In this document: positions 5,137 to 21,494 of the stretch, piece by piece | How the letters are laid out: each line of letters starts with the position of its first letter | How positions within the stretch are numbered: position 1 is the first letter of the stretch | IMG/VR virus record: IMGVR_UViG_3300031851_005298 | Location: 1-21,494 of that record | Source of the DNA: a virus | Direction: 5' to 3' (one strand) | DNA: 21,494 bases | The notes under the pieces: generated by a model | The model's database searches: none | Seen by the model: the letters and a program-made list of their open reading frames with translations, nothing else | Told to the model about the DNA's origin: nothing | Position numbers and translations under genes: made by a program

Positions 5137-5892
5137 TTAACCTACAAAAAAGTTAGGGGGAAGTTCGTGTTCTAAGCGAATGCGTTCTCTAAGTCTATCT
5201 AATTCTGCTATAGCATCATCAAAAAGTTGTCGACCATTTAGCTGAACTCCTCCTGGAAGAACCATTCCTTCAAATTTAATTAAGTTTGCACCCCATTGCT
5301 GTTTTATCAATTGAGTAGAATAGTCTTTAAGCCACATATCATCGTAGACACTCGTGTGTGTATCCGGATCTACAATTTGATATATTTCGGCAATAATATA
5401 TTCTCCAGCCTTGATTTCTTTGTCAGCAAAAGCACCATGAATATATAGTCTATCTTGTCTCCGTGCAAATTCTACTTGAGGATGACCATTTAATTTAGAA
5501 TCTAACAACGATAGATATTGTTGTAATTGCTCGTAATAAGCCAGATCTCCTGCAAAGTTTTGCATATCAGCAATATCATTAAGCATCATTTGATATTTAA
5601 TGTCAAAGAAGTTTCTAGACGAACCAAACGCAGAATTAGTCGGTAAGAGCCGTGATACATATATAATATCAGAAGAAATAGGAATGTATTCATTAGCTAC
5701 ATCATCTGCAGTAACCAGATGCTTTAGATAAGTCTTTACGGTTGCATCAGAGTGAAATTCTTGGTATAGCTGTAAAGCATCATCGATTCTTTCTTCAAGC
5801 TGATCGTCATCTACGTTTATCTCTATCACAGGATCACCGAGTCTACGAAGACAATAGTCGATTAATCCTTGCCTTGATGTGGGTGCCGCCAT
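5137..5892 (-). CDS. gp13: Neck protein gp13
   Basis: gp13 forms the head-proximal neck ring in T4-like phages. The 251-residue protein begins MAAPTSRQGLIDYCLRRLGD followed by PVIEINVDDDQLEERIDDAL, a family hallmark. The later DDMWLKDYSTQLIKQQWGAN and LPGGVQLNGRQLFDDA motifs are also characteristic. The ATG at 5892 follows a good ribosome site (AAAGGAACGAAC). A T4-type late promoter lies 29 bases further up, so gene 13 appears to be the first gene of the 13-14-15-16-17 operon. In T4 the region upstream of gene 13 continues into whisker and short-fibre genes; here it is replaced by an accessory island on the other strand. Confidence 0.93.
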   Translation of the reverse strand: MAAPTSRQGLIDYCLRRLGDPVIEINVDDDQLEERIDDALQLYQEFHSDATVKTYLKHLVTADDVANEYIPISSDIIYVSRLLPTNSAFGSSRNFFDIKYQMMLNDIADMQNFAGDLAYYEQLQQYLSLLDSKLNGHPQVEFARRQDRLYIHGAFADKEIKAGEYIIAEIYQIVDPDTHTSVYDDMWLKDYSTQLIKQQWGANLIKFEGMVLPGGVQLNGRQLFDDAIAELDRLRERIRLEHELPPNFFVG

Positions 5893-5920: not shown

Positions 5921-5928
5921 TATTTATA
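5921..5928 (-). promoter_or_regulatory. T4-type late promoter for the gene 13-17 operon
   Basis: The minus strand reads TATAAATA, the exact late octamer. By T4 spacing, transcription would start near 5915, giving a leader of about 23 bases that contains the AAAGGA ribosome site of gene 13. It lies back-to-back with the plus-strand sigma70-like promoter at 5931-5959, so this short gap is a divergent early/late switch point. Confidence 0.8.
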
Positions 5929-5930
5929 CG

Positions 5931-5959
5931 TTTACAATCACTAGGAAATGTGTTATAAT
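5931..5959 (+). promoter_or_regulatory. Extended -10 sigma70-like promoter, apparently leaderless
   Basis: The plus strand has TTTACA (5931-5936), a 17-base spacer and TATAAT (5954-5959), with TG at 5951-5952 giving a perfect extended -10 (TGTTATAAT). Counting seven bases from the end of the -10 puts the transcript start at 5966, the A of the first gene's ATG. No ribosome site lies at a usable distance, which fits a leaderless message. The elements are seen directly; the start point is inferred. Confidence 0.7.
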
Positions 5960-5965
5960 AATATC

Positions 5966-6364
5966 ATGAAAACAGTATTTACAAATGGATGCTTCGACAT
6001 TTTACATCGAGGCCACTTAGATTATTTAAAAGAATCTGCCTTTTGGGGAGAAAGACTTATTGTCGGTATCAACTCAGACAGTAGTGTACGCAAACTAAAA
6101 GGTTCAGATCGACCAATAAACAAAGAAGAAGATAGAAAGTTTGCACTAGAATCTTTAAGCTTTGTTGACCGTGTTTATATTTTTGATGAGCCAACGCCTT
6201 ATGAACTAATCAAATATATAAGACCGGATATAATTACAAAAGGCGGTGATTATGCACCAGATAATGTTATTGGTAACGATTTAGCTAGAGTAAAAATTAT
6301 ACCGTACACGCTAGGGTATTCTACTACTAAATTTATTGAAAGGATTCGCAATGACGCAACTTGA
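5966..6364 (+). CDS. hldC: Heptose-1-phosphate nucleotidyltransferase (HldE C-terminal domain / HldC type)
   Basis: The family transfers AMP from ATP to D-glycero-beta-D-manno-heptose-1-phosphate, giving ADP-heptose. The 132-residue protein is a single cytidylyltransferase-like Rossmann domain. It starts MKTVFTNGCFDILHRGHLDY, with the catalytic HxGH at His14-Arg-Gly-His17. It continues with LIVGINSDSSVRKLKG and ends with the STTKFIERI helix, matching the nucleotide-binding STTxxI motif of this family. The segment ITKGGDY matches the bacterial HldE C-terminal domain closely. I chose the ATG at 5966; an upstream in-frame ATG at 5948 falls inside the promoter. It overlaps the cupin gene by 14 bases. 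The kinase half of bifunctional HldE is encoded separately at 9474-10343. A glycerol-3-phosphate or ethanolamine-type substrate is less likely because the match to HldE extends along the whole length. Confidence 0.88.
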   Translation: MKTVFTNGCFDILHRGHLDYLKESAFWGERLIVGINSDSSVRKLKGSDRPINKEEDRKFALESLSFVDRVYIFDEPTPYELIKYIRPDIITKGGDYAPDNVIGNDLARVKIIPYTLGYSTTKFIERIRNDAT

Positions 6365-6710
6365 AGGCTTTGTCGAAAAAGGCTGGGGCCATGAAAATAT
6401 CTTTGCTACTAACGATAAGTACACAGGGAAATTATTAGTATTTAATGAAGCTGCAAGGTTTTCAATGCATTTTCATGCGCTAAAGGACGAAACATTTTTT
6501 GTTCTTGAAGGAGTCTTTGATTTACTTACTATTGAAACAGAAAGTGCAGACGTTAAAAAACAAAGGTTAAATCCAGGAGATTCGGTAAGAATAAAACCTT
6601 TAACACCACACCAAGTAATCTGCGTTAAAAAAGGAACTATTATAGAAGTTTCTACTCCAGATTCAGTGGAAGATAATTACAGGGTTGCCAAAGGCAATAG
6701 TCAAAAATGA
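6351..6710 (+). CDS. Small cupin-domain protein, probably sugar-related
   Basis: This 119-residue single-domain cupin keeps the metal-binding motif 1, HFHALKDETFFVLEG, with His40, His42 and Glu47, and motif 2, GDSVRIKPLTPHQV, with the fourth ligand His87. Its opening (KGWGHENIFATNDKYTGKLL) resembles the cupin domains of type II phosphomannose isomerases and small sugar isomerases. I chose the ATG at 6351 because AAGGA lies eight bases before it; the TTG at 6336 is less likely. It overlaps the preceding gene by 14 bases and the next by four (ATGA), so it belongs to the same unit. The substrate is not known. Because no GmhA-type phosphoheptose isomerase is visible in the window, an isomerase role in the same pathway is a speculative option. 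Confidence 0.82.
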   Translation: MTQLEGFVEKGWGHENIFATNDKYTGKLLVFNEAARFSMHFHALKDETFFVLEGVFDLLTIETESADVKKQRLNPGDSVRIKPLTPHQVICVKKGTIIEVSTPDSVEDNYRVAKGNSQK

Positions 6711-7612
6711 TAATATGGGGTATGTCAAAGAACGGTCATGATTGGTCTGTAGCTATTTTTAAAGACAATAACTTAGGAAATAGATTTAAACTTGTAAATA
6801 CTATTTCAGGTAAAGGCTCTAGACACACGCCAGAATGTATAGATGAAGCCAAGAAAAACGGCAAACCTGATTTAGTTATCTGGTATGAAAATCCATATCT
6901 TAAATCTATTAGACAATTTATAGCAGGACAAAAACATCCTTTTAAAAGAAATAACATTAAAAGATATTTACGAGATCTTAATATAAACTGTAAATGGAAA
7001 TACGTAGGCCATCATGAATCTCATGCTGCAGCCTTTTACAATAGTGGATTTAAAGATGCCACTATTGTGGTTCTTGATAGTATTGGAGAATTTGATTGTA
7101 CATCTATATGGAAAGCCAAAGACGGCAAACTTAAAAAAATAAAGTCAACTAAATATCCTCATAGCATCGGACTATTCTATTCAGCTATGACAGATCGAAT
7201 CGGATTAAAGCCACAGCAAGATGAAGCTGTATTTGAAAAAATGTCTAGATCATATACACCATTTTCACAATTAGTAGTACAAATGGAAAATGATATAATA
7301 AAACAGTGGGATCCATTACCTAAATTTAGAGTAAACTTTCACCGCGGCGCTAGGCAAATGTGGTGGGACAGCGGTAAAAAGGAAATAGCCAGCGCATCGC
7401 GTACAATTTTTGAGAGTTTAGTAACTAAAGTTTTAATTCATGCAAAAGAAATTACAGATAGCCGCAATATTGTGTTAAGCGGTGGAGTCGCATTTAACAA
7501 ATCTGTACCAAACATTGCAAGCAAAATATTTGATAATATATACATACCACCAAATCCAAGCGATAGTGGTTCAGCAGAGGGCGCAGTATTAGCGTATTTA
7601 AATAATGGTTGA
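6707..7612 (+). CDS. Stand-alone Kae1-like carbamoyltransferase domain (YrdC-like half missing)
   Basis: Full NodU/CmcH/TobZ carbamoyltransferases join an N-terminal Kae1-like domain, which performs the transfer, to a C-terminal YrdC-like domain that makes carbamoyl-adenylate. This 301-residue protein has only the first. It shows GHHESHAAAFYNSGF (metal-ligand histidines about 102-106), VVLDSIGEFD (Asp124), LSGGVAFNKSV (about 258-266) and PPNPSDSGSAEGAV (about 281-294). It stops cleanly after that last motif, with no GPRALGNRS or FRPFA region. The stop sits in an 8-base overlap with the next gene, so this looks like an evolved form rather than a frameshift; I see no YrdC-like remnant downstream. 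It could work with the full-length paralogue at 11200-13020, use carbamoyl-adenylate made elsewhere, or have a different role. The start ATG overlaps the cupin stop (ATGA). Confidence 0.85.
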   Translation: MIIWGMSKNGHDWSVAIFKDNNLGNRFKLVNTISGKGSRHTPECIDEAKKNGKPDLVIWYENPYLKSIRQFIAGQKHPFKRNNIKRYLRDLNINCKWKYVGHHESHAAAFYNSGFKDATIVVLDSIGEFDCTSIWKAKDGKLKKIKSTKYPHSIGLFYSAMTDRIGLKPQQDEAVFEKMSRSYTPFSQLVVQMENDIIKQWDPLPKFRVNFHRGARQMWWDSGKKEIASASRTIFESLVTKVLIHAKEITDSRNIVLSGGVAFNKSVPNIASKIFDNIYIPPNPSDSGSAEGAVLAYLNNG

Positions 7613-8204
7613 TATGAAAGCAATGCAAATACCTGACTATAATCCAGCCCAGGTAGATAACAACAATATTCAAAATATGTGGCCTAAAACGTTTCATAAA
7701 ACTAATATAGCGTTTGAACGAAAAGATGTTATTACGAAAGGAACATCGTTAGAACCAATTGAAGGAGCTTTAGAAGCCATAAAAAATTTAAGACTAAAAG
7801 GTTATAAGGTCGGATTAATTATGGACGAAGCTGGTTCCACTGAAGAAAAATCAGAATCTATGCTACAAGGACTTATGAAAATATTTGGTGATGCTGGCAT
7901 TATGTCTATTGACTATATGTATTATTCTATTGGAGTAGAAAGACAAGATTCTTTTGTAAAACCAAGTACTGGAATGTTTAAACGAGCTGAAAGCGAAAAT
8001 CCGCAAATTAAATTTAAAGGAAGTATATATGTTGGAAAAACTATTAACGATGCAAAGGCTGCATTTAAAATAGGCGCTAGAGCCATATTAATTAATCCAA
8101 CAGAAGAAACTGTTAAAAAATTAGGTTCCTTTGCTAATCAGAAAGTAAAGAAAAAGACTCGAATATTTCAATCGCTGCAGGAATTTGAGAAAACCCTAAA
8201 ATAA
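7605..8204 (+). CDS. GmhB-like HAD protein with degenerate catalytic motifs
   Basis: The 199-residue protein looks like the HAD-IIIA phosphatase fold of GmhB, which removes the 7-phosphate of heptose-1,7-bisphosphate. After a 35-residue N-terminal extension comes IAFERKDVITKG, where GmhB has FLDRDGTIN. Next is GALEAIKNLRLKGYKVGLIM, then VKPSTGMFKRA (matching RKPxPGM) and YVGKTINDAKAAFKIGA (matching VGDKxxDMxAA). The overall order matches, but the motif I aspartates read Glu and Lys, and the first motif IV aspartate is Lys. As read, it should lack normal HAD phosphatase chemistry. Possible roles are a sugar-phosphate binding or regulatory protein, or a scaffold. The start is uncertain: ATGs at 7605, 7614 and 7623 are all in frame and none has a strong ribosome site. 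The gene ends the first plus-strand block. Confidence 0.65.
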   Translation: MVDMKAMQIPDYNPAQVDNNNIQNMWPKTFHKTNIAFERKDVITKGTSLEPIEGALEAIKNLRLKGYKVGLIMDEAGSTEEKSESMLQGLMKIFGDAGIMSIDYMYYSIGVERQDSFVKPSTGMFKRAESENPQIKFKGSIYVGKTINDAKAAFKIGARAILINPTEETVKKLGSFANQKVKKKTRIFQSLQEFEKTLK

Positions 8205-8266
8205 TAATAGTTGTCGTTATAATTCCCTTTATAGTAAAAAATATTATAGTGGCTAATCCAATTTGT

Positions 8267-8920
8267 TTAAGTCGGTATTTCAGGGAAGAGACACTCATCA
8301 ATATACTTTCTCACTGTTAAAGGATCTACGCCCATGCTCTCCATAACTCTCGGAGTGTGTGGGTTTTTCTTTTGGTTTATTGCGTACCAGTTATGCTTAT
8401 CCGTATAGTCGTTGTCAGTGCTAAGACCTATATTGTGAACAAAGTAGTCTAAGTTATTAACAGCAAGATCTAATAGCTCTTGTAGTTCGTCAGGATCTCT
8501 AACGTTTCCGGCTGAAACCATTGATCCACTAAAAATTGCTTTAGCCCAGTCAGGTAGTTCTCTTTTCTTTGATGGAATAAAACTGTGTACATTCTTTTTA
8601 AATTGTGATAATATGTGACTATTAGGATCTATAGGACTAAAGTCGTGAAAGGCTCCAGTGACTTTATTTGGTCCTGCGATAACATCAAATCCAAATATTG
8701 GAGCAGGATCATTTGTATGAGGATACACGCACAAATGCATCATCCAAAGTTTACGATCTTCTCGTGCATCGATAATATCTAAATCGGCTCTTCGCCAAAT
8801 ATCTGGAGACAAATAAGTATCTGCAGGCCAGGGAAAATTGTGAGTATGTTTTGTAGTGGCAAGGCTTTCAACTATTGCTCGCATTCTTTCGCTTGTATCT
8901 ATAAGTTTTTCAAAGACCAT
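8267..8920 (-). CDS. pcyX: Ferredoxin-dependent bilin reductase, PcyX/PcyA-like
   Basis: These enzymes reduce biliverdin IX-alpha using ferredoxin electrons. The 217-residue protein carries the family core: MMHLCVYPHTNDPAPIFGFD, then VIAGPNKVTGAFHDFSP, and a C-terminal YAINQKKNPHTPRVMES with YIDECLFPEIP. His62 and Asp79 are 17 residues apart, exactly as PcyA His88 and Asp105. Asp51 lies near where PcyA has Glu76. The retained His points to the PcyA/PcyX branch rather than PebS, which I recall having Asn there. PcyX, described from uncultured oceanic phages beside heme oxygenase, makes phycoerythrobilin; this call is by lineage and neighbourhood, and the product needs a test. It overlaps the heme oxygenase stop by 11 bases, with TAAGGAG upstream (spacing rather long, about 13 bases). 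No ferredoxin gene is in the window. Confidence 0.87.
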   Translation of the reverse strand: MVFEKLIDTSERMRAIVESLATTKHTHNFPWPADTYLSPDIWRRADLDIIDAREDRKLWMMHLCVYPHTNDPAPIFGFDVIAGPNKVTGAFHDFSPIDPNSHILSQFKKNVHSFIPSKKRELPDWAKAIFSGSMVSAGNVRDPDELQELLDLAVNNLDYFVHNIGLSTDNDYTDKHNWYAINQKKNPHTPRVMESMGVDPLTVRKYIDECLFPEIPT

Positions 8921-9443
8921 ATTCTTTTTCTAACTCCTTAAATAGCGCTGTTGCATATTTAAAAACGCCTTGTGCTTCTTTGTACATATCATCATCTAGC
9001 TTAGATCTAACGTATTCTATAAGGCCTTTTTTATCTTCAAATTTATACATGTTATGTAAACCAAAAGGAATACGTTTTGAAATCATATTGCCTCCATACA
9101 TATCTCCAAAGTGACGAACGTACATATGTGCCCAGCATTGATATTCATCAATGCCTTCTACATAATCGCAATATTCTTTTACAACGGGATATAGTTTAAA
9201 ACTATCATTTACTTCTAACGAACGAAGGTCTTCTACAATTTTATGATGTCTTTTAATATCAGGTATATCTTCTAATATGCCAAGTTTATCTGCCCTTTGC
9301 TCTAACCTAAAATATATCATTTCTTGCTGATATAAATAGTTAGCGTACTGATGCTTAGATATAGCACCTGACATGAGCAGCTTTGCAAACGGGCTTTCTT
9401 CTGCTTCAGTATGTACGTCTTTAACGAGATCACGTAACGCCAT
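8910..9443 (-). CDS. ho1: Heme oxygenase (biliverdin-forming)
   Basis: Heme oxygenase opens the heme ring to give biliverdin IX-alpha, CO and iron. The 177-residue protein has the proximal heme-ligand histidine at His11 in VKDVHTEAEESPF. The distal-helix signature is AHMYVRHFGDMYGGNMISKR, with the flexible GDMYGG (residues 113-118) and the conserved Asp114. It is shorter than cyanobacterial HO1 (about 240 residues), mainly at the C-terminus, as expected for compact phage versions. The start at 9443 has a TGGAG ribosome site in a leader of about 15 bases from the late promoter at 9464-9471. It is followed by an overlapping bilin reductase gene, so the two act in sequence: heme to biliverdin to reduced bilin. 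Iron release from host heme could be a second benefit. Confidence 0.92.
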   Translation of the reverse strand: MALRDLVKDVHTEAEESPFAKLLMSGAISKHQYANYLYQQEMIYFRLEQRADKLGILEDIPDIKRHHKIVEDLRSLEVNDSFKLYPVVKEYCDYVEGIDEYQCWAHMYVRHFGDMYGGNMISKRIPFGLHNMYKFEDKKGLIEYVRSKLDDDMYKEAQGVFKYATALFKELEKEYGL

Positions 9444-9463
9444 AACAACTCCATTGAAATAGG

Positions 9464-9471
9464 TATTTATA
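9464..9471 (-). promoter_or_regulatory. T4-type late promoter for the bilin cassette
   Basis: The minus strand reads TATAAATA, an exact late octamer. By T4 spacing, transcription would start near 9458, 15 bases before the heme oxygenase ATG, and the leader contains TGGAG. The octamer ends three bases from the plus-strand kinase start at 9474, so the divergent gene has almost no room for its own leader. The sequence suggests the bilin genes are expressed with the virion genes. Confidence 0.75.
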
Positions 9472-9473
9472 TA

Positions 9474-10343
9474 ATGATTTATGTAACAGGTGATATGATT
9501 ATAGATGAGTACATCTATGGTACTACAACTCGAATTTCTCCAGAAGCTCCAGTTCCCATTGTAGATTTAACTTCTCGCGAAAGGCGTTGGGGAGGAGTAG
9601 GAAATGTATATAATAATATTTCATCAGTTTATTATACAGCAAGATTAGCTTGCTATAAAGATGAATATAACGCAGATTTATTTACTGATAATCCCAATCA
9701 TACGTTTTTTCATACGCATAAAATACCACTAAAAACTAGAATCATGTCTAATAATAGATACATGTCACGCATAGACGATGAAGAATATATAAAGGATTCT
9801 AAATTAGAAGATAATATACTAGAACTTTGGAATACTAATTCAGGAGTCATAGTATTATCTGATTATAATAAAGGGTCTATAAAAAATCCATTAGAGTTTA
9901 TAAAAAAAGCTAAATCTAAAGTGCTAGTAGATCCTAAACTTTCTTTAGATAATTATAAAGGTGCACATATATTAAAGCCAAATAGAAAAGAATTTGAAGA
10001 TTATGTAGGAGTTTGTAAGACGCCTAAAGAACTAATGGCAAAAGCGCAACTTACAAGGGATCATTTAGAACTAGAGCATTTGGTTGTGACATTAGGAGAA
10101 GATGGTGTATTATTAGTAGGAGATACAATAGAACACTATGAGTCACAAGTTGAAGAAGTGTTTGATGTTACTGGTGCAGGCGATACCTTTATGGCTGGAT
10201 TAGCCTTAGGTACAGAAGCTGGTATGTCTATATCGGCTTCAACTAGAGCTGCAAATAAATTAGCTGGTATAGCAGTATCACATAACGGAACATATACTAT
10301 CTCAGGTGAAGACTGGATAGAATCAATAAAGGAATTACAATGA
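9474..10343 (+). CDS. hldA: D-glycero-beta-D-manno-heptose-7-phosphate kinase (HldE N-terminal domain / HldA type)
   Basis: This PfkB-family kinase makes heptose-1,7-bisphosphate. The 289-residue protein matches the N-terminal domain of HldE from end to end: MIYVTGDMIIDEYIYGTTTR, then ISPEAPVPIVDL, WGGVGN (39-44), KTRIMSNNRYMSRID, VLSDYNKGSI, VDPKLSLDNYKGAHILKPN and DVTGAGDTF (231-239) with the catalytic base Asp237. The ISPEAPVP segment is diagnostic of heptose kinases among PfkB proteins. No ribosome site of good quality precedes the ATG; translation may be leaderless, or driven from further upstream inside the heme oxygenase gene. The stop overlaps the epimerase start (ATGA). With hldC in block 1 it makes a split HldE. 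All key residues look intact. Confidence 0.92.
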   Translation: MIYVTGDMIIDEYIYGTTTRISPEAPVPIVDLTSRERRWGGVGNVYNNISSVYYTARLACYKDEYNADLFTDNPNHTFFHTHKIPLKTRIMSNNRYMSRIDDEEYIKDSKLEDNILELWNTNSGVIVLSDYNKGSIKNPLEFIKKAKSKVLVDPKLSLDNYKGAHILKPNRKEFEDYVGVCKTPKELMAKAQLTRDHLELEHLVVTLGEDGVLLVGDTIEHYESQVEEVFDVTGAGDTFMAGLALGTEAGMSISASTRAANKLAGIAVSHNGTYTISGEDWIESIKELQ

Positions 10344-11203
10344 AAATTTTAGTAACAGGATCAGATGGATTTATTGGGAAAAATCTCGTAAAATCTTTAA
10401 AAAAAGACAATATTGAAGTTATTGAATATCCAGTAATGCTAGATATGCCTGATCTTAATGAGGTCGATAAAGTTGTGCACTTAGGAGCTATATCTAGCAC
10501 TACTGAAAAAAATGTAGGTATGATTATGGATCATAACTATGATTTTAGTTATAAGCTTTTAATGCACTGTATTGACAAACAAGTTGATTTTGCATATGCT
10601 TCTTCAGCATCAGTTTATGGTTCTCCTATAACATTTGATGATGTAACTAGAGAAAGTTTTAACGCGGATGGAACCTCAGGATTTGTAGAAGAACAACATT
10701 GTTCTCCACAAAGCCCTTATGCATGGTCAAAGTATATGTTTGATCGTTTAGTGATAAAAACATTACAATACGATTTACCTATAGAGATTCAAGGATTTAG
10801 ATATTTCAATGTGTATGGTCCTCATGAAGAACATAAGGGTGAACAAGCTAGTGTTATAAGTAAATGGGCAAAAAACAAAGAAATAAAATTATTTACCGGT
10901 AGTGAGAACTTTTATAGAGATATGATTCATGTAAAAGACGTATGCGCAATACATAAAAAGTTTTTTGATATCAAAGAATCTGGAATCTGGAACATTGGTA
11001 CTGGCAATGCTTATAGCTTTCAATTCATAGCAACTCAATTATCAAATTTTACCGATATCGAAATAGAATATATTGATTTTCCAGAACATTTAAAATCACA
11101 ATACCAATGCTTCACTAAGGCCGATACGACCAAATTAATGAAGACATTGGTTAATCATGATTTTATAAGTCCAGTAGATCCAGCACTTTTTATAAAAACT
11201 TAA
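10340..11203 (+). CDS. hldD: ADP-heptose 6-epimerase (HldD/RfaD-like)
   Basis: HldD converts ADP-D-glycero-D-manno-heptose to the L-glycero form used by heptosyltransferases. The 287-residue short-chain dehydrogenase-type protein has the NAD(P)-binding GSDGFIGKN at 7-15, LGAISSTTE (48-56), YASSASVYG, the catalytic Tyr127-x3-Lys131 in PYAWSKYMFDRL, GFRYFNVYGPHEEHKG, TGSENFYRDMIHVKDV and NIGTGNAYSFQFIA. The EGACSSTTE-like and GSENFxRDF-like segments and QYQCFTKADTTKL match HldD rather than general sugar epimerases. E. coli HldD is about 310 residues, so this one is slightly short. AAAGGA lies eight bases before the ATG, which overlaps the kinase stop. The 3' end overlaps the convergent carbamoyltransferase by four bases. 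Confidence 0.9.
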   Translation: MKILVTGSDGFIGKNLVKSLKKDNIEVIEYPVMLDMPDLNEVDKVVHLGAISSTTEKNVGMIMDHNYDFSYKLLMHCIDKQVDFAYASSASVYGSPITFDDVTRESFNADGTSGFVEEQHCSPQSPYAWSKYMFDRLVIKTLQYDLPIEIQGFRYFNVYGPHEEHKGEQASVISKWAKNKEIKLFTGSENFYRDMIHVKDVCAIHKKFFDIKESGIWNIGTGNAYSFQFIATQLSNFTDIEIEYIDFPEHLKSQYQCFTKADTTKLMKTLVNHDFISPVDPALFIKT

Positions 11204-13020
11204 TTTTTTATTGTAATTAGTTTTTCGTATTCTGGTAAAAACATATATTCTATAGCAGAGCTTTTTAATGTACGTATAGCGTCTTCAAAAGTTTCTACTA
11301 ATGGCTCACCGCCTAAATTAAACGAAGTATTAAAAATCATTGGAATTCCAGTTTGCTTTTTAAATTCTTTAATTAAATTATAATAATGGAGATTTTGCTC
11401 CTTATTTACAGTCTGAATTCGGCAGGTTCCATCTACGTGTATAATAGATGGGACCATTTCAGCTACCCCATCTTTACAGTCAACAGCGTACATCATATGA
11501 GGAGTGGACTCCATGCCTCGTAGATCGAACCAATCGTGCACGTCTTCTTCTAGAATAGTTCCAGCAAATGGTCTAAAGTATTCTCTACGTTTTACTGAGT
11601 TTACGTGATCTTTGCCATTAGGATCTCCTGGATTATATAATATACTTCTATTTCCCAACGCCCGCGGCCCGGCCTCTGATCTTCCCTGGAATATTGTAAC
11701 AATATTATTATCTTTTATAAGATTTACTACGTCAGAATATGAAGCATCCTGCGTTTCATATTCTAATATGCCTTTATTATCTTCAACATAGTCTTTAGAA
11801 TAATTATATTGCGGACCTAAATATATCCCGCTGACGTCTTTTTTAGTATTTTCATTAATTAAGCTTTGCGACATATGATAACATAATAGTCCTGCACCGA
11901 TACATGTACCCGCATCGCTCGATATAGGCTCAACATATAGTTTAATTGGAGTATCAATTAAATGTTTTAGATACTCGTAATTTGCCACACAATTTAGTCC
12001 GTATCCTCCAGACAGAACTACGTTTTGTTTTCCAGTTATATCTACTGCCTTTTTAATTAGATTTACTATTTCATTTTGAGTTTCTTGTTGCACCTGATAA
12101 GCGACGTCTCTACGATTTTGTAATTTTGTAAGATCTTTGCTATCTCCACTAAACGCCGCGTACTTATTAGTACTGTGTACATACGTTGCTGAATTCGGAT
12201 ATGTAGGTAAAACTTTACCACGATTTACCAAAGGAACATTTAAACCGTCTAGACATACTTTTTCAAACAAGGGTTCTAAATCGTTATTAGGTTTTCCGTA
12301 TGGAGCCAGCCCCATTGTTTTTCCAGCTTCAATCGAACTAAATCCACAATACTCTGTGACGGCTTCATATGCCTTTGTAATTCCAGCTCTATCCGTGAAT
12401 ACTATATCAAATACGTCATCTCCTAACATATCCGGACCATTAAAGTCTTTTATCATAATCGGTGCTATATTTTCAGCATGGCCGTGGTGTTTCCATTTAT
12501 TAGCAAATGTATATGGATAGCTGCAATCAATAATACTTTCTGTTTCATATGTCATTACTTGCCGAGGCTCACCTCTACCTCCGTCAAACGCCATTGGAGC
12601 AAACGTACCAGCTCCATCGGCAATAACCGCAACCGCATCTTCAAATCCGGATCTGTAAAATGCTGCAGCTGCATGTAACTTATGATGAATCTTAGAATAA
12701 TCTAATACTTGAGGGTGATCATAGATATTTTGTTTTCTATCAATAAGTCCTAATTTTCTAGCCAAACCAGTATATATGTTATCGCCAGTAAAGTCAATTT
12801 TACCTGCTGTTTCAGATACTGGTTGAGTATGGGCTATTACAAGATAGTCAACTTTATCTGTATAGTCTAATACCTTTATCATTCCTGCTAATGGACCGCC
12901 ATCATATTTATGGCGGCTAAGTCTTTCTTCTTCTAGCATGAATACAATTTCGCCGTCTTTTAATAGACATGTGGCACCGTTATGCCCGCGGGCAATTGCT
13001 AAAATATATCCAGTTTCCAT
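11200..13020 (-). CDS. Full-length O-carbamoyltransferase (NodU/CmcH/TobZ family)
   Basis: The family uses carbamoyl phosphate and ATP to carbamoylate hydroxyl groups of sugars or antibiotics. At 606 residues it is complete. The Kae1-like part shows ARGHNGATCLL (10-20), HHKLHAAAAFYRSGF (metal histidines 112, 113, 116), IADGAGTF, LSGGYGLNCVANYEY (337-350) and EPISSDAGTCIGAG (364-377). The YrdC-like part shows GPRALGNRSILYNP (451-464), YFRPFAGTILEED and FNTSFNLGGEPLVETFEDA. AAAAGGA precedes the ATG, which lies one base after the stop of the GT9 gene, so the two are co-translated. The acceptor cannot be read from sequence; beside heptose genes a heptosyl group is the most economical choice. Its paralogue at 6707-7612 has only the first domain. 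Confidence 0.95.
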   Translation of the reverse strand: METGYILAIARGHNGATCLLKDGEIVFMLEEERLSRHKYDGGPLAGMIKVLDYTDKVDYLVIAHTQPVSETAGKIDFTGDNIYTGLARKLGLIDRKQNIYDHPQVLDYSKIHHKLHAAAAFYRSGFEDAVAVIADGAGTFAPMAFDGGRGEPRQVMTYETESIIDCSYPYTFANKWKHHGHAENIAPIMIKDFNGPDMLGDDVFDIVFTDRAGITKAYEAVTEYCGFSSIEAGKTMGLAPYGKPNNDLEPLFEKVCLDGLNVPLVNRGKVLPTYPNSATYVHSTNKYAAFSGDSKDLTKLQNRRDVAYQVQQETQNEIVNLIKKAVDITGKQNVVLSGGYGLNCVANYEYLKHLIDTPIKLYVEPISSDAGTCIGAGLLCYHMSQSLINENTKKDVSGIYLGPQYNYSKDYVEDNKGILEYETQDASYSDVVNLIKDNNIVTIFQGRSEAGPRALGNRSILYNPGDPNGKDHVNSVKRREYFRPFAGTILEEDVHDWFDLRGMESTPHMMYAVDCKDGVAEMVPSIIHVDGTCRIQTVNKEQNLHYYNLIKEFKKQTGIPMIFNTSFNLGGEPLVETFEDAIRTLKSSAIEYMFLPEYEKLITIKN

Positions 13021-13021
13021 T

Positions 13022-13930
13022 CTAATATCCTTTTACCACATCTAGAATTTCTTTTTTAGTTGAGTCATCCATAAGCATTAGGCCTTCATTATTTAAATCA
13101 TAGGATGGATCATATGTAACTCTCATAGGAGAAAATCTTCTTTTTCCTTCACCTAAATCAAATATTTTAAATTTTTTATTATGAGGATATGAAATATTTT
13201 CTGGAGCTGTTCCTCCAATTACGACTGTTGCTGGTTTATCCAGGGCGTGAGCAAGATGCTGACCTACTGAATCACAGCCAAAAAATCCGTCTGAGGCGTT
13301 TACTATTGCTGCCCATTGTATGAGATTTAAATCTTTTGGTGTTAATATACCAAGATCTTGATCTGTTGGAATAGGAAAAGTAGACATCATTATAATAATA
13401 TATTCTTCCTTTAGGGCTTCTATCATATGTAACGCATCAGATAGTTCAAAACTTCTACCAGTAGAATCAATAATAAATCTGCCCTCTATAGAAGCTGCAG
13501 AACCAAACGGCTGAAATACGATACACTTTTCTTTTCTTAAGTTTTGTTTTGCATCATCAATAAAATTATATCCAAAAACCTGATCTCGTTTTGAAATTTC
13601 TAATTTTAATGGTTCAATATCTGGAACTTCATCTAAATCATTAATAATCATGTCAAAGGCTTGACTTAGATTACATTTCTGATTATAGTATGCGTTGAGC
13701 CTATAAGGCTCTGGGGTTATGCATTCTCTATTTAATAATTTGTCTTCAAATAAATTTTTTGTATTAGGAACATAAGAACAATCTCTGAGAATTGGACTCA
13801 TTAGAAATAGCTCTGGCCAAGCTTCTGCTACAATAATATTATTTGGATTTTTTTGAATGCTTTTTTCTAAAGCTGGAATAGCAGTTAATACTCTTCCTGC
13901 GCCCCCATTCAAGAAGAAGGCTTTGTCCAT
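13022..13930 (-). CDS. GT9 family, heptosyltransferase-like glycosyltransferase
   Basis: GT9 enzymes transfer heptose from ADP-heptose to LPS core sugars. The 302-residue protein has a GT-B layout: an N-terminal GGAGRVLTAIPALEKSI (9-25), the counterpart of the GDxLLTLPAL loop, then VFQPFGSAAS (138-147) opening the second domain. The donor-binding segment is FFGCDSVGQHLAHALDKPAT (216-235), matching the family GxDSGxxHLAxAL motif with Asp220 and His225. It is a little shorter than typical heptosyltransferases (320-350). TGAGGT lies upstream of the ATG. It is located between an SGNH hydrolase and a carbamoyltransferase, and the same island encodes ADP-heptose synthesis, so a heptosyl donor is the natural inference. 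The acceptor is unknown. Confidence 0.83.
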   Translation of the reverse strand: MDKAFFLNGGAGRVLTAIPALEKSIQKNPNNIIVAEAWPELFLMSPILRDCSYVPNTKNLFEDKLLNRECITPEPYRLNAYYNQKCNLSQAFDMIINDLDEVPDIEPLKLEISKRDQVFGYNFIDDAKQNLRKEKCIVFQPFGSAASIEGRFIIDSTGRSFELSDALHMIEALKEEYIIIMMSTFPIPTDQDLGILTPKDLNLIQWAAIVNASDGFFGCDSVGQHLAHALDKPATVVIGGTAPENISYPHNKKFKIFDLGEGKRRFSPMRVTYDPSYDLNNEGLMLMDDSTKKEILDVVKGY

Positions 13931-13948: not shown

Positions 13949-14869
13949 TTAAAATAATTTAAGTTTATGTTCTCGTGAAGCAATAGTCCCGTTAGATACA
14001 ACGTCTGCAGGACCATATACGTGATTATATATATTGTCTGGATTTACGTCCATGTAGTTGTCTTCATTGATAAGACTTTTTTGAAAATTAGACGTTAGAT
14101 CTATATCCTGGCCCATCACTAAACAGTTGTATACTTTTTTTGCTAAAATTTCATGATTAGGCTCACTAAGATGATTTAGTCTTTGATCACATCCGTGCCA
14201 TTTGTCGGAAACGATATTGTGCCACGTTTTTTTTGCACTACCGTTTTCATTACCATCACCCATTTCTTCGGTAGATATTGTAGTTAAATTTCCAAAAACA
14301 TTGCACATCTTTCCCATTGGGCTAATTTCTGTAATTTTATGTGAAAGATGTTTATAAGCAGATTTACCATTTTCCGTATAATTTACTGTAACATGTGGAG
14401 TAAACGCTGGAAGTACGGCAAATTTTATTCCATGGTATGAGCATACATGGTTAATTATTCCTATTGCTCCATAGTATAAAGACATTAATGATGCTTCATT
14501 TTGTAAATGATTTTTATACGCATCAATAGCGGCTACTACTTTTTTAACAGGATATTGGTGGTATCCTCCCCGCATATTTAGGTTTCCCCAATCAGGTCTG
14601 TCCTGTATAAACCATCTTCTACTTGGTTCGCTTAAAACAAAAATAGCGTAATCACCTCTGCTCATAGCATCTTTATTTTCTAAAAGCATTGTAATTAGAT
14701 AATCTAAAGATGAGCCATTAACTGCTGTGCTATGCACGTCAGCGTGTAGCAACATTGCTATTTGATTAAACCATGTTTTTTGTAAAATTTCGGTAGGGGT
14801 ACCTTTGGGTTGTTCGGAAAGAAAACTGTCTCCGAACAACCATAATTTTTTATCAGAAGTAACGCTCAT
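13949..14869 (-). CDS. SGNH/GDSL-type hydrolase-like protein
   Basis: SGNH enzymes are esterases or acyl-transfer enzymes, often acting on O-acetyl groups of glycans. The 306-residue protein has block I LWLFGDSFLSEQ with the nucleophile Ser15 in GDS, block II VNGSSLDYL with Gly52, a block III-like DYAIFVLSEPSRRW (73-86), and a C-terminal NHLSEPNHEILAKKVY with the likely catalytic His233. The usual DxxH aspartate position is Arg230; Asp228 lies two residues earlier and may serve instead. There is no signal peptide or membrane segment. The ribosome site is weak. It is the first gene of the minus-strand glycan block, 18 bases from the GT9 gene. It could trim or add acyl groups on the glycan that the neighbouring enzymes build. 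Confidence 0.75.
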   Translation of the reverse strand: MSVTSDKKLWLFGDSFLSEQPKGTPTEILQKTWFNQIAMLLHADVHSTAVNGSSLDYLITMLLENKDAMSRGDYAIFVLSEPSRRWFIQDRPDWGNLNMRGGYHQYPVKKVVAAIDAYKNHLQNEASLMSLYYGAIGIINHVCSYHGIKFAVLPAFTPHVTVNYTENGKSAYKHLSHKITEISPMGKMCNVFGNLTTISTEEMGDGNENGSAKKTWHNIVSDKWHGCDQRLNHLSEPNHEILAKKVYNCLVMGQDIDLTSNFQKSLINEDNYMDVNPDNIYNHVYGPADVVSNGTIASREHKLKLF

Positions 14870-14907
14870 ATATAAAAGGATCTCGCTTTTTCATCAATTT
14901 TTCAGTT

Positions 14908-14925
14908 CTTCTTTTTTTAAAGAAG
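14908..14925. repeat. Perfect AT-rich inverted repeat in the SGNH leader
   Basis: CTTCTTT (14908-14914) and AAAGAAG (14919-14925) are separated by TTTT and can form a 7-bp hairpin. On the minus strand it falls within the first 20 bases of the transcript predicted from the promoter at 14934-14962. It lacks a GC-rich stem and a following U-run, so it is a poor terminator; a 5' stabilising hairpin or protein site fits better. Confidence 0.55.
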
Positions 14926-14933
14926 TATTTAAT

Positions 14934-14962
14934 ATTATACCATAAATTAGTAATCATGTACA
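14934..14962 (-). promoter_or_regulatory. Extended -10 sigma70-like promoter for the glycan block
   Basis: The minus strand has TGTACA (14962-14957, a 4/6 match to TTGACA), a 17-base spacer and TATAAT (14939-14934), with TG one base before it (TGGTATAAT). The predicted transcript start is near 14927, about 58 bases before the SGNH hydrolase ATG. The promoter lies in the 106-base gap after the upstream cysteine-rich gene and shares the extended -10 design of the plus-strand island promoter at 5931-5959. Confidence 0.62.
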
Positions 14963-14975
14963 TACCTATTATATA

Positions 14976-16226
14976 TTAGGGACAAATAAAGCTAATCCTT
15001 ACAGCTCCACCTCTACCAGCGTCTCCACAGTTACTATTACCACCCATTGTATGAGTCATAGTACCACCCAGACCCGGCATACGTCGCCAACCAGTATTAG
15101 TGTTGTTGCAACATGCTGCGCAACACTTACCATAACAAGTTCCACTTGTCCAACAGAAATTACATCCTACGCAACACGTCCAGTTATAGTTTTCTCCACA
15201 CATAAATGGAACACCTGGTTCAGTAGTATGTCCGTAGTTATTTGTGTCGTAGCAATATCCACCGTAGTGCCCTTGAACTTTGTAAATAATTGCTCTTGGC
15301 GAACAGCCGTAAGCAAACATTCTACTTCCTACATTAGCTATGCATCCGCATGATGCGCAAGAGTTGTCGAAGCAATAGAAGGTTGAACACTGACACCAGC
15401 ATCCACCACCCGAGTTATTGAACTGACACCATGCAACCCCAGCCCTACATGTACACGACATACCGTTATTAAACGCTTGCAGATTTTGAAAGCTGTGTCT
15501 ACCTGGATCAGCACATACTTGGCACATGCCTGGGCCGTTGACCCATGTAGGTCCACCGTTGTTATAATATACATCTGCATTTCCTGGATAACAACAATAT
15601 GCACAACCAGCACAAACCGTATAGGATTCTCCTGCAGTTACAGGAATAGTCGTAGTAAAGAAAGCGCCTGTAGATCCGTATGGAGATCCACCACAACCTG
15701 GTGATGCACCACTAGAATTACCTGGACCCCACCCTGTAAATTGTACCTTTGTAACGCCAGCTGGTACAACAAAATTACAACATGAACCACATCTCCAATA
15801 ACCGTTGCAACAACAGTTTAGTCCAGTATTATTTCCGTTAGATCCAAAAACATTGCCATAGGGTAGTGTGTCATTATCTATAACCCAGATGTGGCACCTT
15901 TCGCTCGGACAGCTGCCGTCTTTATAAGTGTCCGGAATACAGCACCAAGCTTGACAATATGTATTATAACCTCGGTAAGAATCTCTTTCTAAACACTGAT
16001 TTAGCGTAATAAGTCCAGCTAAGCCTGCAGCTGCATTCTCTTTATTATATTGAACACAGCAGTAACAACATTTACAACACTCCAAGCACGTCTTGCACTG
16101 GTTTAGTGTACTTTGTGCCGTTTGGTATTGGTTGTTTGCCCGGTTCGCTTGTTCGGTTGCTGCCGTTAGCTGAGTATCGGCATACAAGTACTTATCTAAT
16201 GCTGCGTAAAATAATACGTCTGCCAT
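14976..16226 (-). CDS. Cysteine-rich, glycine-rich-domain protein (paralogue A), probable virion/adhesin protein
   Basis: The function is not recognised. The 416-residue protein has 51 cysteines (about 12%). The first 40 residues look helical (TAATEQANRANNQYQTAQST) and are followed by a dense cluster at 44-57 with pattern C-x2-C-x2-CC-x-CC-x-CC. A beta-type glycine-rich domain begins at NFVVPAGVTKVQFTGWGPG (about 151-169), as in glycine-rich domains of phage tail fibres, with many CC and CxxC pairs inserted. It ends GGTMTHTMGGNSNCGDAGRGGAVRISF. There is no signal peptide. The ATG has a strong ribosome site (AAGAGGA). The upstream neighbour is 13 bases away, so it is probably co-transcribed from the late promoter at 17149-17156. 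The 415-residue protein at 17163-18410 is its paralogue. A tail-tip or adhesin role is inferred from position beside the long fibre gene. Confidence 0.85.
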   Translation of the reverse strand: MADVLFYAALDKYLYADTQLTAATEQANRANNQYQTAQSTLNQCKTCLECCKCCYCCVQYNKENAAAGLAGLITLNQCLERDSYRGYNTYCQAWCCIPDTYKDGSCPSERCHIWVIDNDTLPYGNVFGSNGNNTGLNCCCNGYWRCGSCCNFVVPAGVTKVQFTGWGPGNSSGASPGCGGSPYGSTGAFFTTTIPVTAGESYTVCAGCAYCCYPGNADVYYNNGGPTWVNGPGMCQVCADPGRHSFQNLQAFNNGMSCTCRAGVAWCQFNNSGGGCWCQCSTFYCFDNSCASCGCIANVGSRMFAYGCSPRAIIYKVQGHYGGYCYDTNNYGHTTEPGVPFMCGENYNWTCCVGCNFCWTSGTCYGKCCAACCNNTNTGWRRMPGLGGTMTHTMGGNSNCGDAGRGGAVRISFICP

Positions 16227-16239
16227 ACTCTAATTCCTC

Positions 16240-17106
16240 TTAATCTGTTATTTCTTTATAGAAGTCTGTATGACTTATTGGCTCAGGTAATTGATACGGA
16301 AGCCTGTCGCGAGGATCGTTAACCGGGCCTGTGCCATTAGTATGCCCATTGGCGGTTATTTCGCCAATTGTTAATCCAGCATCACCAGCATCTTTTACAA
16401 TTTTAATAGCCTGATTTACTGACAATGGTATTTTAGGAACTAGGCTTGTTGACGGATGGGTTGTATACGCCCATGGCCATTTACCTTCTTCACCTGCAAT
16501 AAATGTATCTAGCTTGGCTAAATACGCACCTGCATCAGATTCGCCAGCAGCACCTAAGTCATACGTATCATAATAATGTTGTACGGCCGCTTTACGTGTT
16601 CTCGCAATAAACGCATTGTGCGATTCTGGTGAACGAAGTATCTGTTTAAATTTTATATTATCAAACTTATTGCCATCAGAATCTATATCTTTACTAACTT
16701 CCATCTGAAATACTTGATGTATATTTGGATTTGTTGATACTTGATACTTGACGGATGGGTCGGCGGCTAAAGTCTTTTCTTCAAACACTTCTTCGTGTGG
16801 CATGTCTGTTCGATCTTCGTCATGAAAATTCTGTAGATACCAGCAAGCCATAGCATGTTTATTGCTAGATGATGCTTTTAATCTTATATTTAAAGTAGGT
16901 GATCCATCACCTAGTAAAGCATCACTATTCATATCATGTGCGCCATCGCTATCATAATCAAACGATGTTCCAAAGACTTGACCGTCTGCATTAGCATACA
17001 AGGTGACTTCATCTGGCCCATTGTATGTTGTAGTTAAAGTTTTACCTTCATCCCAAGAGTTTACATATTGCTCATCGGGAATTGGATATGTAATTGTAAT
17101 TGGCAT
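16240..17106 (-). CDS. Unrecognised protein in the fibre region, probably structural
   Basis: I do not recognise this 288-residue protein. It begins MPITITYPIPDEQYVNSWDE and is acidic and soluble, with no signal peptide or membrane segment. It has only one cysteine, in sharp contrast to its two neighbours. The first half looks beta-rich (TLTTTYNGPDEVTLYANADG) with aspartate-rich DYDSDGAHDMNSD and DIDSDGNKFDN segments (about 51-63 and 140-150) that could bind calcium. The middle is helical (IARTRKAAVQHYYDTYDLGA), and the C-terminus is proline-rich (DPRDRLPYQLPEPI). An AGAGGGA ribosome site precedes the ATG, and an exact late promoter lies upstream at 17149-17156. Its placement between two cysteine-rich paralogues and behind a late promoter suggests a virion component or an assembly factor for them. 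Confidence 0.8.
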   Translation of the reverse strand: MPITITYPIPDEQYVNSWDEGKTLTTTYNGPDEVTLYANADGQVFGTSFDYDSDGAHDMNSDALLGDGSPTLNIRLKASSSNKHAMACWYLQNFHDEDRTDMPHEEVFEEKTLAADPSVKYQVSTNPNIHQVFQMEVSKDIDSDGNKFDNIKFKQILRSPESHNAFIARTRKAAVQHYYDTYDLGAAGESDAGAYLAKLDTFIAGEEGKWPWAYTTHPSTSLVPKIPLSVNQAIKIVKDAGDAGLTIGEITANGHTNGTGPVNDPRDRLPYQLPEPISHTDFYKEITD

Positions 17107-17148
17107 TTTATATCCCTCTTAGAGAATTAAGAATTTTATTGTTTAATA

Positions 17149-17156
17149 TATTTATA
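17149..17156 (-). promoter_or_regulatory. T4-type late promoter in the fibre region
   Basis: The minus strand reads TATAAATA, an exact late octamer, in the 56-base gap between the two structural genes. Transcription is predicted to start near 17143, 37 bases before the ATG at 17106, and would cover the 288-residue protein and the cysteine-rich paralogue A. Confidence 0.75.
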
Positions 17157-17162
17157 CTCATT

Positions 17163-18410
17163 TTATATGCAACCCCAGCGTGCGTACACAGCTCCGCCGC
17201 GGCCTATGTCACCGCACCAAGCAGTACCGCCGCCCATTCCGTGGGTACCCATACCGCCTGCACCTGGAGATCGTCTATGGCCACAACAGTTTTGACATTC
17301 CTGTCCACCCCAACATGTTTGCGATGTGTAGCAATAACATTGAACACATGGAAATTTAGGAGTACCTTGAGAACATATATTTCCGTACTGATCTTGGTTA
17401 AACATTCCTTTTGGAAGAATACTTGGTATGCTAAAGCACATGGCTGGAACTGTTACAGCTGACCAACTGCCTGAGTTTATTGCTTCGTAATTTATTCTAC
17501 ATCTAGATAGCTTATATGGAATAGTACACTGACAATACCCATTTTGTCCCAAATGGCTTTCATAACCTCTAGAACCTCTACTGTTGTCATGGCACATCCA
17601 GTAACCTTGTGTACATAAACAGTTACCAGATCCCCAATAACCTTGGCAATAACCCTGTGCTGCAGAACCACAACATGCTTCTCGTTCCTGCATCTCTTGA
17701 TACAAACTAGCGGCTCCGCCCTGAACACATAGACAAATACATACGTTTGAACCAGTTGCTGAAGTACAACCGTACACCATGCTGGCTGAACCCGAATTGG
17801 ATGCTGGATATCCGCCTTCACAACCTTTTGCATAGCAGCATATTGCACATCCTGATATAAGACAAAAGACATCTCCCGGAGCTACACAGAAGACGTTTGA
17901 ATAATAACCTCCTGTAGCTCCATTAGGTGCAAATGCGCAACAAGATCCCCAAGTAGTAGATGCTCCAGGACCCCATAATTCTACTTGCAGTCTATTAGTG
18001 CCTGCTGGAACTGTGAAGGTACACTGAAAACCACATTGGCCATAACAGCAGTTAGTACTAACTCCATCAAGACAAAGACATCCTACAGATGAATATCCAG
18101 GCAAATCGCATACGTTTCTAATATGCTGCCATGAACAAACACAAGATATATCATGTGAATAAAATGCAAAGTTACATTCGCTTAAACCTAGAAGTGAAAG
18201 ATCACCGCCGAAGTTGTCGATATAGTCCTGTGCGCTGTCTATTGCGCTATCATAATTAGCGATCGAATCAACGACTAATTGTATTTGTGCTGGTAAAGTA
18301 CCACACGCAGAATCAGCTGAATCTCGTAATCTACGCTGTGCAGCAATCTGCTCAGATTTCGCGTTGACTGTTTTTATCAGCTGATTATATTGTAAAACGT
18401 TAATTGCCAT
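17163..18410 (-). CDS. Cysteine-rich, glycine-rich-domain protein (paralogue B), probable virion/adhesin protein
   Basis: This 415-residue protein has 43 cysteines (about 10%). It opens with a helical stretch (residues about 5-65, with KTVNAKSEQIAAQRRLRDSA) containing a single cysteine, then changes sharply to a cysteine-rich part from about residue 79. A glycine-rich beta domain starts at CTFTVPAGTNRLQVELWGPG (130-149). It ends GGMGTHGMGGGTAWCGDIGRGGAVYARWGC, closely parallel to paralogue A, so the two arose by duplication. Unlike A it lacks the packed CC cluster near the N-terminus. The ATG follows TAGAGGT and lies 15 bases after the fibre gene stop, so the two are co-transcribed. A fibre-associated tip or adhesin is the likeliest role; the cysteines could form disulfides once outside the cell, or bind metal. 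Function is unknown. Confidence 0.85.
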   Translation of the reverse strand: MAINVLQYNQLIKTVNAKSEQIAAQRRLRDSADSACGTLPAQIQLVVDSIANYDSAIDSAQDYIDNFGGDLSLLGLSECNFAFYSHDISCVCSWQHIRNVCDLPGYSSVGCLCLDGVSTNCCYGQCGFQCTFTVPAGTNRLQVELWGPGASTTWGSCCAFAPNGATGGYYSNVFCVAPGDVFCLISGCAICCYAKGCEGGYPASNSGSASMVYGCTSATGSNVCICLCVQGGAASLYQEMQEREACCGSAAQGYCQGYWGSGNCLCTQGYWMCHDNSRGSRGYESHLGQNGYCQCTIPYKLSRCRINYEAINSGSWSAVTVPAMCFSIPSILPKGMFNQDQYGNICSQGTPKFPCVQCYCYTSQTCWGGQECQNCCGHRRSPGAGGMGTHGMGGGTAWCGDIGRGGAVYARWGCI

Positions 18411-18425
18411 TTTTTACCTCTACCA

Positions 18426-21400: not shown

Positions 21401-21494
21401 CCTGAAGAGCTATATAAGAACTAGTACTATATTGTACAACATCGTTAATTAAATAATTAGTACTGCTATCATATCCGCCAGCTCTATAGTTTAG
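18426..21494 (-). CDS. Long fibre-like virion protein with beta-helix segment (5' end off the window)
   Basis: The frame is open from the right edge (1022 codons plus stop), so the GTG at 21134 is not the true start. Residues near the edge read YDSSTNYLINDVVQYSTSSY, which resembles a small carbohydrate-binding module. The VYYVAENGNADSDLGQTVDT and AWGSLKFALENV segment leads into GPATIFIKDGKYRENLPMTI and PANITLKGDGQRNTEIHPAA. That is the start of a right-handed beta-helix of the kind seen in large structural proteins of T4-like cyanophages and in pectate-lyase-like tailspikes. The middle has repeated beta-type modules. Near the C-terminus, VPTEKATKGYVDEAL matches a motif common in tail fibres before the distal tip. 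It is the most upstream visible gene of the minus-strand virion block. A receptor-binding or baseplate-attached fibre is likely; no catalytic residues can be assigned. Confidence 0.82.
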   Translation of the reverse strand, partial: LNYRAGGYDSSTNYLINDVVQYSTSSYIALQDFAASGNFGNELTAGKWELLAAGGGSVLPSLATSDKGKFLGSTDGVAYSWQYPGKADKVYYVAENGNADSDLGQTVDTAWGSLKFALENVTGPATIFIKDGKYRENLPMTIPANITLKGDGQRNTEIHPAAGDSNKTMFFVNSGVLVEELKFTGLTGFALDSANPHDIEDATIGGVYFRLDPTAVILKSPYIKESTAFSTGGVGAIIDGGLNSNPANQGSMVFHTFTQVHNGGAGFHVRKNGKSEIVSCFTYYCDFGLVTSSGGKIRALNCNNSYGTYGAVAEGFDSNEVAITGKIRGTSLHYDGNTITGGTEFSVGSKIVGETSNEKIDRATRAANVSFHSPNHGLTTGQKISITGLTPSTWASLFTADSYWVTATDSSNFIPYIDSARSTGIDTQNAGGRNTVSTTITDIARQNPVRLTVTTAANADSYAPHYIQSVGGMTQMNNRWVTFDSGAATSASTLFARIAENEKITVGNDGATNTTTFTAGGNIGGVAVPSTNQPDITLYRGSRYRFIGDGTALQGGRFYIATGTNWDSSNFTDEYTTGILNSRNSLDGDSTLDSTVDGLLFEVGPTTPSTLYYHWDSAANGTQMRGTINIVNPPFIDAQSYSVYTSGGQARLMDSGDYFDSAHWNAEAPTADVINSQPSEDKIYVENITFPGFSGGELISQGAVNASLANSNFYRGQYGYIVTVDTLTGEPKPGASISFAGDADSAGYARAYVISSVSGYGGGDATITLSQQKLETNASADDVAATIRTNYSQVRLTGHDFLSVGTGGVTTTNYPGTPTQAASQGNEVVETAPGRVYFISTDQDGNFRVGNYFRIDQATGRATLDASAFDLSGLTSLRLGSIGAQIGESINEFSSDATLSGNSNLAVPTEKATKGYVDEALNSLVDAIGAGNYDSANTTWATGANTGNPFLDSDRGDSGGRRALGYVNGPITISDIDYDSYTDEIKSYKEKMVLGFGFTEEKNVVITYNSDGSIERIQTTVL

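Follow-up and report, generated by a model that had tools for sequence, protein, structure and literature searches.

A heme oxygenase and PcyX-type bilin reductase cassette, probably under late control, in a marine T4-like phage

The IMG/VR virus fragment analyzed here (the window, 21,494 bases) comes from a marine T4-like phage. Its minus strand carries a T4-like structural block, with genes for the tail sheath, the large and small terminase subunits, the sheath stabilizer, and gp14- and gp13-like neck proteins. The large terminase is nearest to that of phage C48C1 (73%), followed by cyanophages at ~46%, and the portal protein of a 151-kb relative (L013/G006) shares ~52-53% identity with cyanophage, Methylophilales and Pelagibacter phage portals. 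The tRNAs, polymerase and portal were checked for host prediction; no host was obtained, and C48C1 is the nearest named phage. Large minus-strand genes without a Pfam match (306 to at least 1022 aa) fill positions 13949-21494 and probably encode virion or fibre proteins. A copy of the octamer TATAAATA, which is discussed below, precedes one of them. The hemO and pcyX genes (Table 1) run antisense between two plus-strand groups of heptose genes. Genes for parts of an ADP-heptose pathway lie on either side of it at 5948-8204 (+), 9474-11203 (+) and 11200-13930 (-), including a split HldE (adenylyltransferase and kinase halves), an HldD-like epimerase and a GmhB-like phosphatase; the flanks also hold NodU-type carbamoyltransferases and a heptosyltransferase-like gene.

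Table 1. Features of the hemO-pcyX locus and octamer sites in the window
Feature	Position	Strand	Basis or remark
pcyX-type ferredoxin-dependent bilin reductase, 217 aa	8267..8920	-	Pfam Fe_bilin_red, E 8.2e-11
hemO, heme oxygenase, 177 aa	8910..9443	-	Pfam Heme_oxygenase, E 1.6e-13; matches PDB heme oxygenases
hemO/pcyX overlap, 11 nt	8910..8920	-	read directly from sequence
GGAG, likely ribosome-binding site of hemO	9449..9452	-	read directly from sequence
TATAAATA, candidate T4-type late promoter of hemO-pcyX	9464..9471	-	exact match; predicted +1 near 9458
gp13-type neck gene	5137..5892	-	PHROG head-tail adaptor Ad2; downstream of cassette; own TATAAATA at 5921-5928
TATAAATA sites shortly upstream of genes (four of five in window)	1549, 5921, 9464, 17149		tail sheath, gp13, hemO and gene 16240-17106, respectively

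HemO contains a proximal histidine (His11) and the motif GDMYGG in its distal helix, and residues H11, D114, G117 and G118 do not vary across 18 viral relatives. The AlphaFold model (pLDDT 89 for the reductase and 94 for HemO) resembles heme oxygenases in the latter case, with TM scores of 0.80-0.86. The proximal His, the Gly-rich distal helix and the predicted heme oxygenase fold are those of an HO-1-type enzyme. The reductase model has the bilin reductase fold, by which alone PcyA and PcyX are indistinguishable. Its best solved relative is a phage PcyX (PDB 5OWG, E 1.8e-52), and PcyA reaches only ~1e-9. Asp48 aligns with Asp55 of PcyX and Glu76 of PcyA, and His62 and Asp79 align with His88 and Asp105 of PcyA at the same 17-residue separation; all three are without variation among 15 viral relatives. 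For six of the seven reductase pairs compared, dN/dS falls at 0.04-0.08, and for the pair with L015 it is 0.17, indicating purifying selection. The low ratio shows that the genes are real and selected for function. A preliminary reading made from the DNA letters alone (hereafter the sequence-only reading) had described two overlapping genes for a heme oxygenase and a bilin reductase, the latter with the PcyA His/Asp spacing and an Asp near PcyA Glu76. The coordinates, Pfam matches, 11-nt overlap and residue alignments agree with this description.

Two trees place the reductase within a mostly viral clade together with 5OWG and the enzyme of phage Mosig (support 98/91 and 97/88); PebS and the PcyA enzymes of cyanobacteria and cyanophages fall outside it. 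Both were built without alphaproteobacterial PcyA, since a search of 385 genomes of one class found no usable references. Affiliation with PebS or PebA was rejected on the basis of 16-17% identity and a separate clade in both trees, and membership in the PcyA class on the basis of Asp48 in place of Glu and separation from the cyanobacterial and cyanophage PcyA clade. A hypothetical gene of S-SSM4 (L088:651-1331), tried as a PebS, formed a terminal branch of 10 and was left out of the rebuilt tree. Sequence, residues and tree thus support a viral PcyX-type enzyme, and the trees uphold the earlier placement on the PcyX branch rather than with PebS. That reading had also spoken of uncultured oceanic phages; "uncultured" is out of date, as the isolate Mosig carries the cassette. 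A scan of bacterial genomes gave five matches (L089-L093). The Nonlabens match (L093) is a PcyA-like bacterial gene, and three others lie on short MAG contigs of 3-30 kb (L089, L090 and L092), perhaps of phage origin. On the 335-kb contig L091, binned as Neomarinimicrobiota, positions 6240-8537 hold three consecutive genes, those for HemO, a carbon-nitrogen hydrolase and a bilin reductase; given its phage-like neighbours, this contig is perhaps a large phage.

Within the viral PcyX clade the query and 5OWG lie on different branches, and it is the latter branch that was assayed, so we infer the product rather than read it off; it is likely to be phycoerythrobilin (PEB). The enzyme might instead work as a PcyA and yield phycocyanobilin (PCB), which we consider unlikely. 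PcyX is related to PcyA, the query sits on a branch of its own, and one phage PcyA/X enzyme proved to be a true PcyA (PMC11480375). Against this, the PCB-making phage enzyme lacks Asp55, whereas the query has the invariant D48, and 5OWG is much nearer to the query than any PcyA. On the side of PCB, reverting the Asp to Glu reportedly did not convert PcyX into PcyA (Ledermann 2018), and this one residue would therefore not decide the product.

The overlap of the two genes suggests translational coupling. A heme oxygenase gene was found in all 77 records that have sequence upstream of the reductase; the two genes overlap by 8-23 nt in 73 of these, lie 10 nt apart in one, and are separated by 0.56-1.35 kb in three. 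The pairing is constant, but the partner is not. Three dissimilar types of heme oxygenase occur beside reductases that are 87-95% identical to that of the query. Type A is the window's own. Type B (L006, L009 and L014) is 41-42% identical to the window enzyme and 68-70% identical to that of L025, although the L025 reductase shares only ~51% identity with the reductases that accompany type B. Type C (L007, L008 and L019) has an insertion of ~30-45 residues after the distal helix, and is also found in L016 and L017 beside reductases of 74%. In the heme oxygenase tree, type B groups with L024/L025 (100/99), and monophyly of A, B and C is rejected (AU p 0.001), for a grouping that had been defined after the identities were known. 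Types A and C have the promoter and the divergent kinase gene in common, and nucleotide similarity to the window returns within the final stretch of hemO. Because the flanks are shared and similarity resumes near the gene end, hemO has been exchanged while the promoter on one side and pcyX on the other were retained. That hemO was swapped repeatedly next to an almost constant pcyX is a new detail. It also implies that the two steps are held together without an apparent need for a matched protein pair.

The cassettes of ~20 relatives of the query share a position upstream of gp13-gp14-gp15-terminase, with the same strand used throughout, and those of the Mosig lineage separately show it too. 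The occurrence of this arrangement in two distant lineages, and its absence from that place in others, is likewise new. The gp13-gp14-gp15-terminase region of marine T4-like genomes is a hot spot for accessory genes, and position by itself is thus weak evidence. In five other records (L061, L062 and L076-L078) the neighbours of hemO-pcyX are not virion genes but gp32, uvsX or gp41. Lineages may therefore differ in when the cassette is expressed, and late timing would not be a general property of hemO-pcyX.

For the query, the evidence on timing comes from the DNA ahead of hemO. Transcription starting at 9458 would give a 15-nt leader containing GGAG (9452-9449). The octamer upstream of this point matches the late promoter described for T4-like cyanophages, NATAAATA/TATAAATA (PMC2984593). 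Across the long relatives it precedes gp2, gp48, gp25, gp13, gp18 and others, and no copy was observed immediately ahead of DNA polymerase, gp41, UvsX or gp32. As in T4-type late promoters, the motif is situated ~20-40 nt before late genes, and the late-transcription proteins gp55 (76% to C48C1), gp33 and gp45 are encoded by the 151-kb relative; the window is a fragment without them. Motif placement, conservation and these genes make TATAAATA at 9464-9471 a credible late promoter. The sequence-only reading had noted an exact octamer before hemO, which is confirmed, and had proposed expression together with virion genes. We regard late timing of hemO-pcyX expression as likely on these genomic grounds.

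It could be objected that the octamer matches by chance or only comes along with the divergent gene start, with the cassette being transcribed early or by read-through. The motif is not in excess in the window (5 found vs 4.1 expected), it is missing from L020, and in the three type B records hemO directly follows another gene and has no octamer. Furthermore, the bilin genes that neighbour replication genes in some lineages would suit early expression. Placement, however, points the other way. Four of the five octamers in the window are shortly upstream of same-strand genes, those nearby including gp13 and the tail sheath. The 151-kb relative has 27 octamers, of which 20 precede a same-strand start by <=80 nt (p 1.5e-15), compared with a fraction of 0.095 for the null of octamers made of the same letters; in the 135-kb relative (L006/G005) the same holds for 15 of 24 (p 3.6e-11). 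The octamer is also exact before hemO in 10 of the 11 relatives with the divergent layout, L020 being the sole exception, while the remaining leader sequence has diverged. Chance or a by-product of gene layout is accordingly an improbable explanation.

The cassette very probably converts heme to a pink bile pigment. HemO would open the heme ring, yielding biliverdin IX-alpha along with free Fe(II) and CO, and the PcyX-type reductase would then add four electrons, probably from host ferredoxin, to give PEB. A T4-type late promoter of its own, dependent on gp55, gp33 and the clamp, probably drives transcription of the pair together with the virion genes. Setting its physiological role aside, a hemO-pcyX cassette under late control is the probable reading of the locus. 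As to the role, we tentatively favor late turnover of heme and iron with removal of biliverdin, a proposal that is largely speculative and has somewhat less than an even chance of being correct. Iron would be freed and heme removed from a host under dismantling, and the reductase would clear biliverdin, pulling the flow onward and leaving a reduced, antioxidant bilin. Heme turnover is our leading guess ahead of chromophore supply and of photo- or oxidative protection, and these readings overlap. An iron role alone counts for less, because the reductase is not required for iron release and yet is always present.

Family searches found no phycobilisome, GAF or psbA-type domains in ten related records, and no psbA-type, phycobilisome, GAF, ferrochelatase, Fer2 or alaS genes in the long relatives. 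Such searches may miss divergent proteins, and the annotated ferrochelatase of Mosig also escaped them. The exceptions among bilin-binding and heme-supply genes are alaS in the L057 record and a ferredoxin in Mosig, which is the only Fer2 carrier among 18 records searched. L057 is a 140-kb phage record (G017) whose 5-aminolevulinate synthase gene (64169-65335, E 1.4e-162) is situated tens of kb from hemO-pcyX, a broken three-gene cassette. With such genes absent by family search, the electrons would probably come from host ferredoxin, and supply of phycobilisomes is unlikely as a role.

The bilin could instead be loaded as a chromophore into a phytochrome, bilin-binding globin or antenna protein of the host, altering light sensing or harvesting during infection. 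Phage bilin reductases do make known chromophores, and HemO and PcyA of CB_2 assemble a functional phytochrome in E. coli (PMC11480375). That the reductase is always kept with a heme oxygenase suggests that bilin rather than iron is the goal, and the absence of a phage bilin-binding gene does not exclude a bilin-binding protein of the host. Nevertheless, the missing phycobilisome, GAF and psbA-type domains speak against chromophore supply, as does a late promoter, which would leave little time for a signalling effect. In addition, Mosig has the same cassette and infects Pelagibacter, which is not known to possess phycobilisomes or phytochromes. We judge this reading possible but rather doubtful. 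Protection has slightly less in its favor and is also doubtful; here bilins would scavenge the reactive oxygen that arises from late heme release and light, and up to lysis the cassette would keep heme photosensitization and oxidative damage low. It is compatible with late timing and with either end product, PEB or PCB, and a putative peroxiredoxin is also encoded by Mosig, but it overlaps with heme turnover. It is very unlikely that the late pathway serves the virion itself, with PEB bound by a virion protein or heme iron loaded into tail or baseplate proteins. If it did, the phage would be pigmented and possibly light-responsive, or heme breakdown would form part of the virion-building programme.

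Ocean phages with the hemO-pcyX pair have been described before (PMC11480375 and references therein). As it is published and present in a cultured phage, the cassette itself is not new; what is added is the promoter, the conserved genomic place and the exchange of hemO. The role of the pathway has been called enigmatic, with supply of iron and of photoreceptors under discussion, and the benefit of bilin synthesis to phages whose hosts are not photosynthetic is posed as an open question (PMC11480375). A conserved late promoter would turn that question away from early light harvesting and toward heme, iron or pigment late in infection. Marine HemO and PcyX make PEB in vitro, a freshwater pair is active as well, and end products vary between phages, being either PEB or PCB (PMC11480375). 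Varying products and exchanged heme oxygenase types fit a premium on running the pathway over making one exact pigment.

Among the known systems, the marine viral hemO-pcyX pair of PcyX_EBK42635 (5OWG) resembles the query in its genes, their order, the Asp/His/Asp residues and the clade, with ~44-47% reductase identity over the aligned part between the query and the separate 5OWG/Mosig lineage. Mosig (EXVC030M, MT647606) has the same layout, in which hemO overlaps pcyX directly upstream of gp13-gp14 and terminase; its reductase is 47% and its heme oxygenase ~35% identical to those of the query. In contrast to the query, Mosig has no divergent heptose genes and no exact TATAAATA directly before hemO, and unlike the long relatives of the query it carries the Fer2 ferredoxin. 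The valaS-hemO-pcyA/X cassettes, such as that of CB_2, share the pair of hemO and a bilin reductase (PMC11480375), but they contain alaS, which the long relatives of the query lack; the CB_2 enzyme, without Asp55, makes PCB (PMC11480375). PebS (P-SSM2) and PcyA (P-SSM4, P-RSM4 and P-RSM6) of cyanophages are likewise phage-borne and ferredoxin-dependent, with the same predicted fold, but are only 16-28% identical to the query, fall in separate clades and belong to phages of cyanobacterial hosts. In P-RSM6 (L086:672-2004), tandem PebS and PcyA genes are located one endonuclease gene away from the large terminase subunit, and bilin genes are thus found near packaging genes in cyanophages too.
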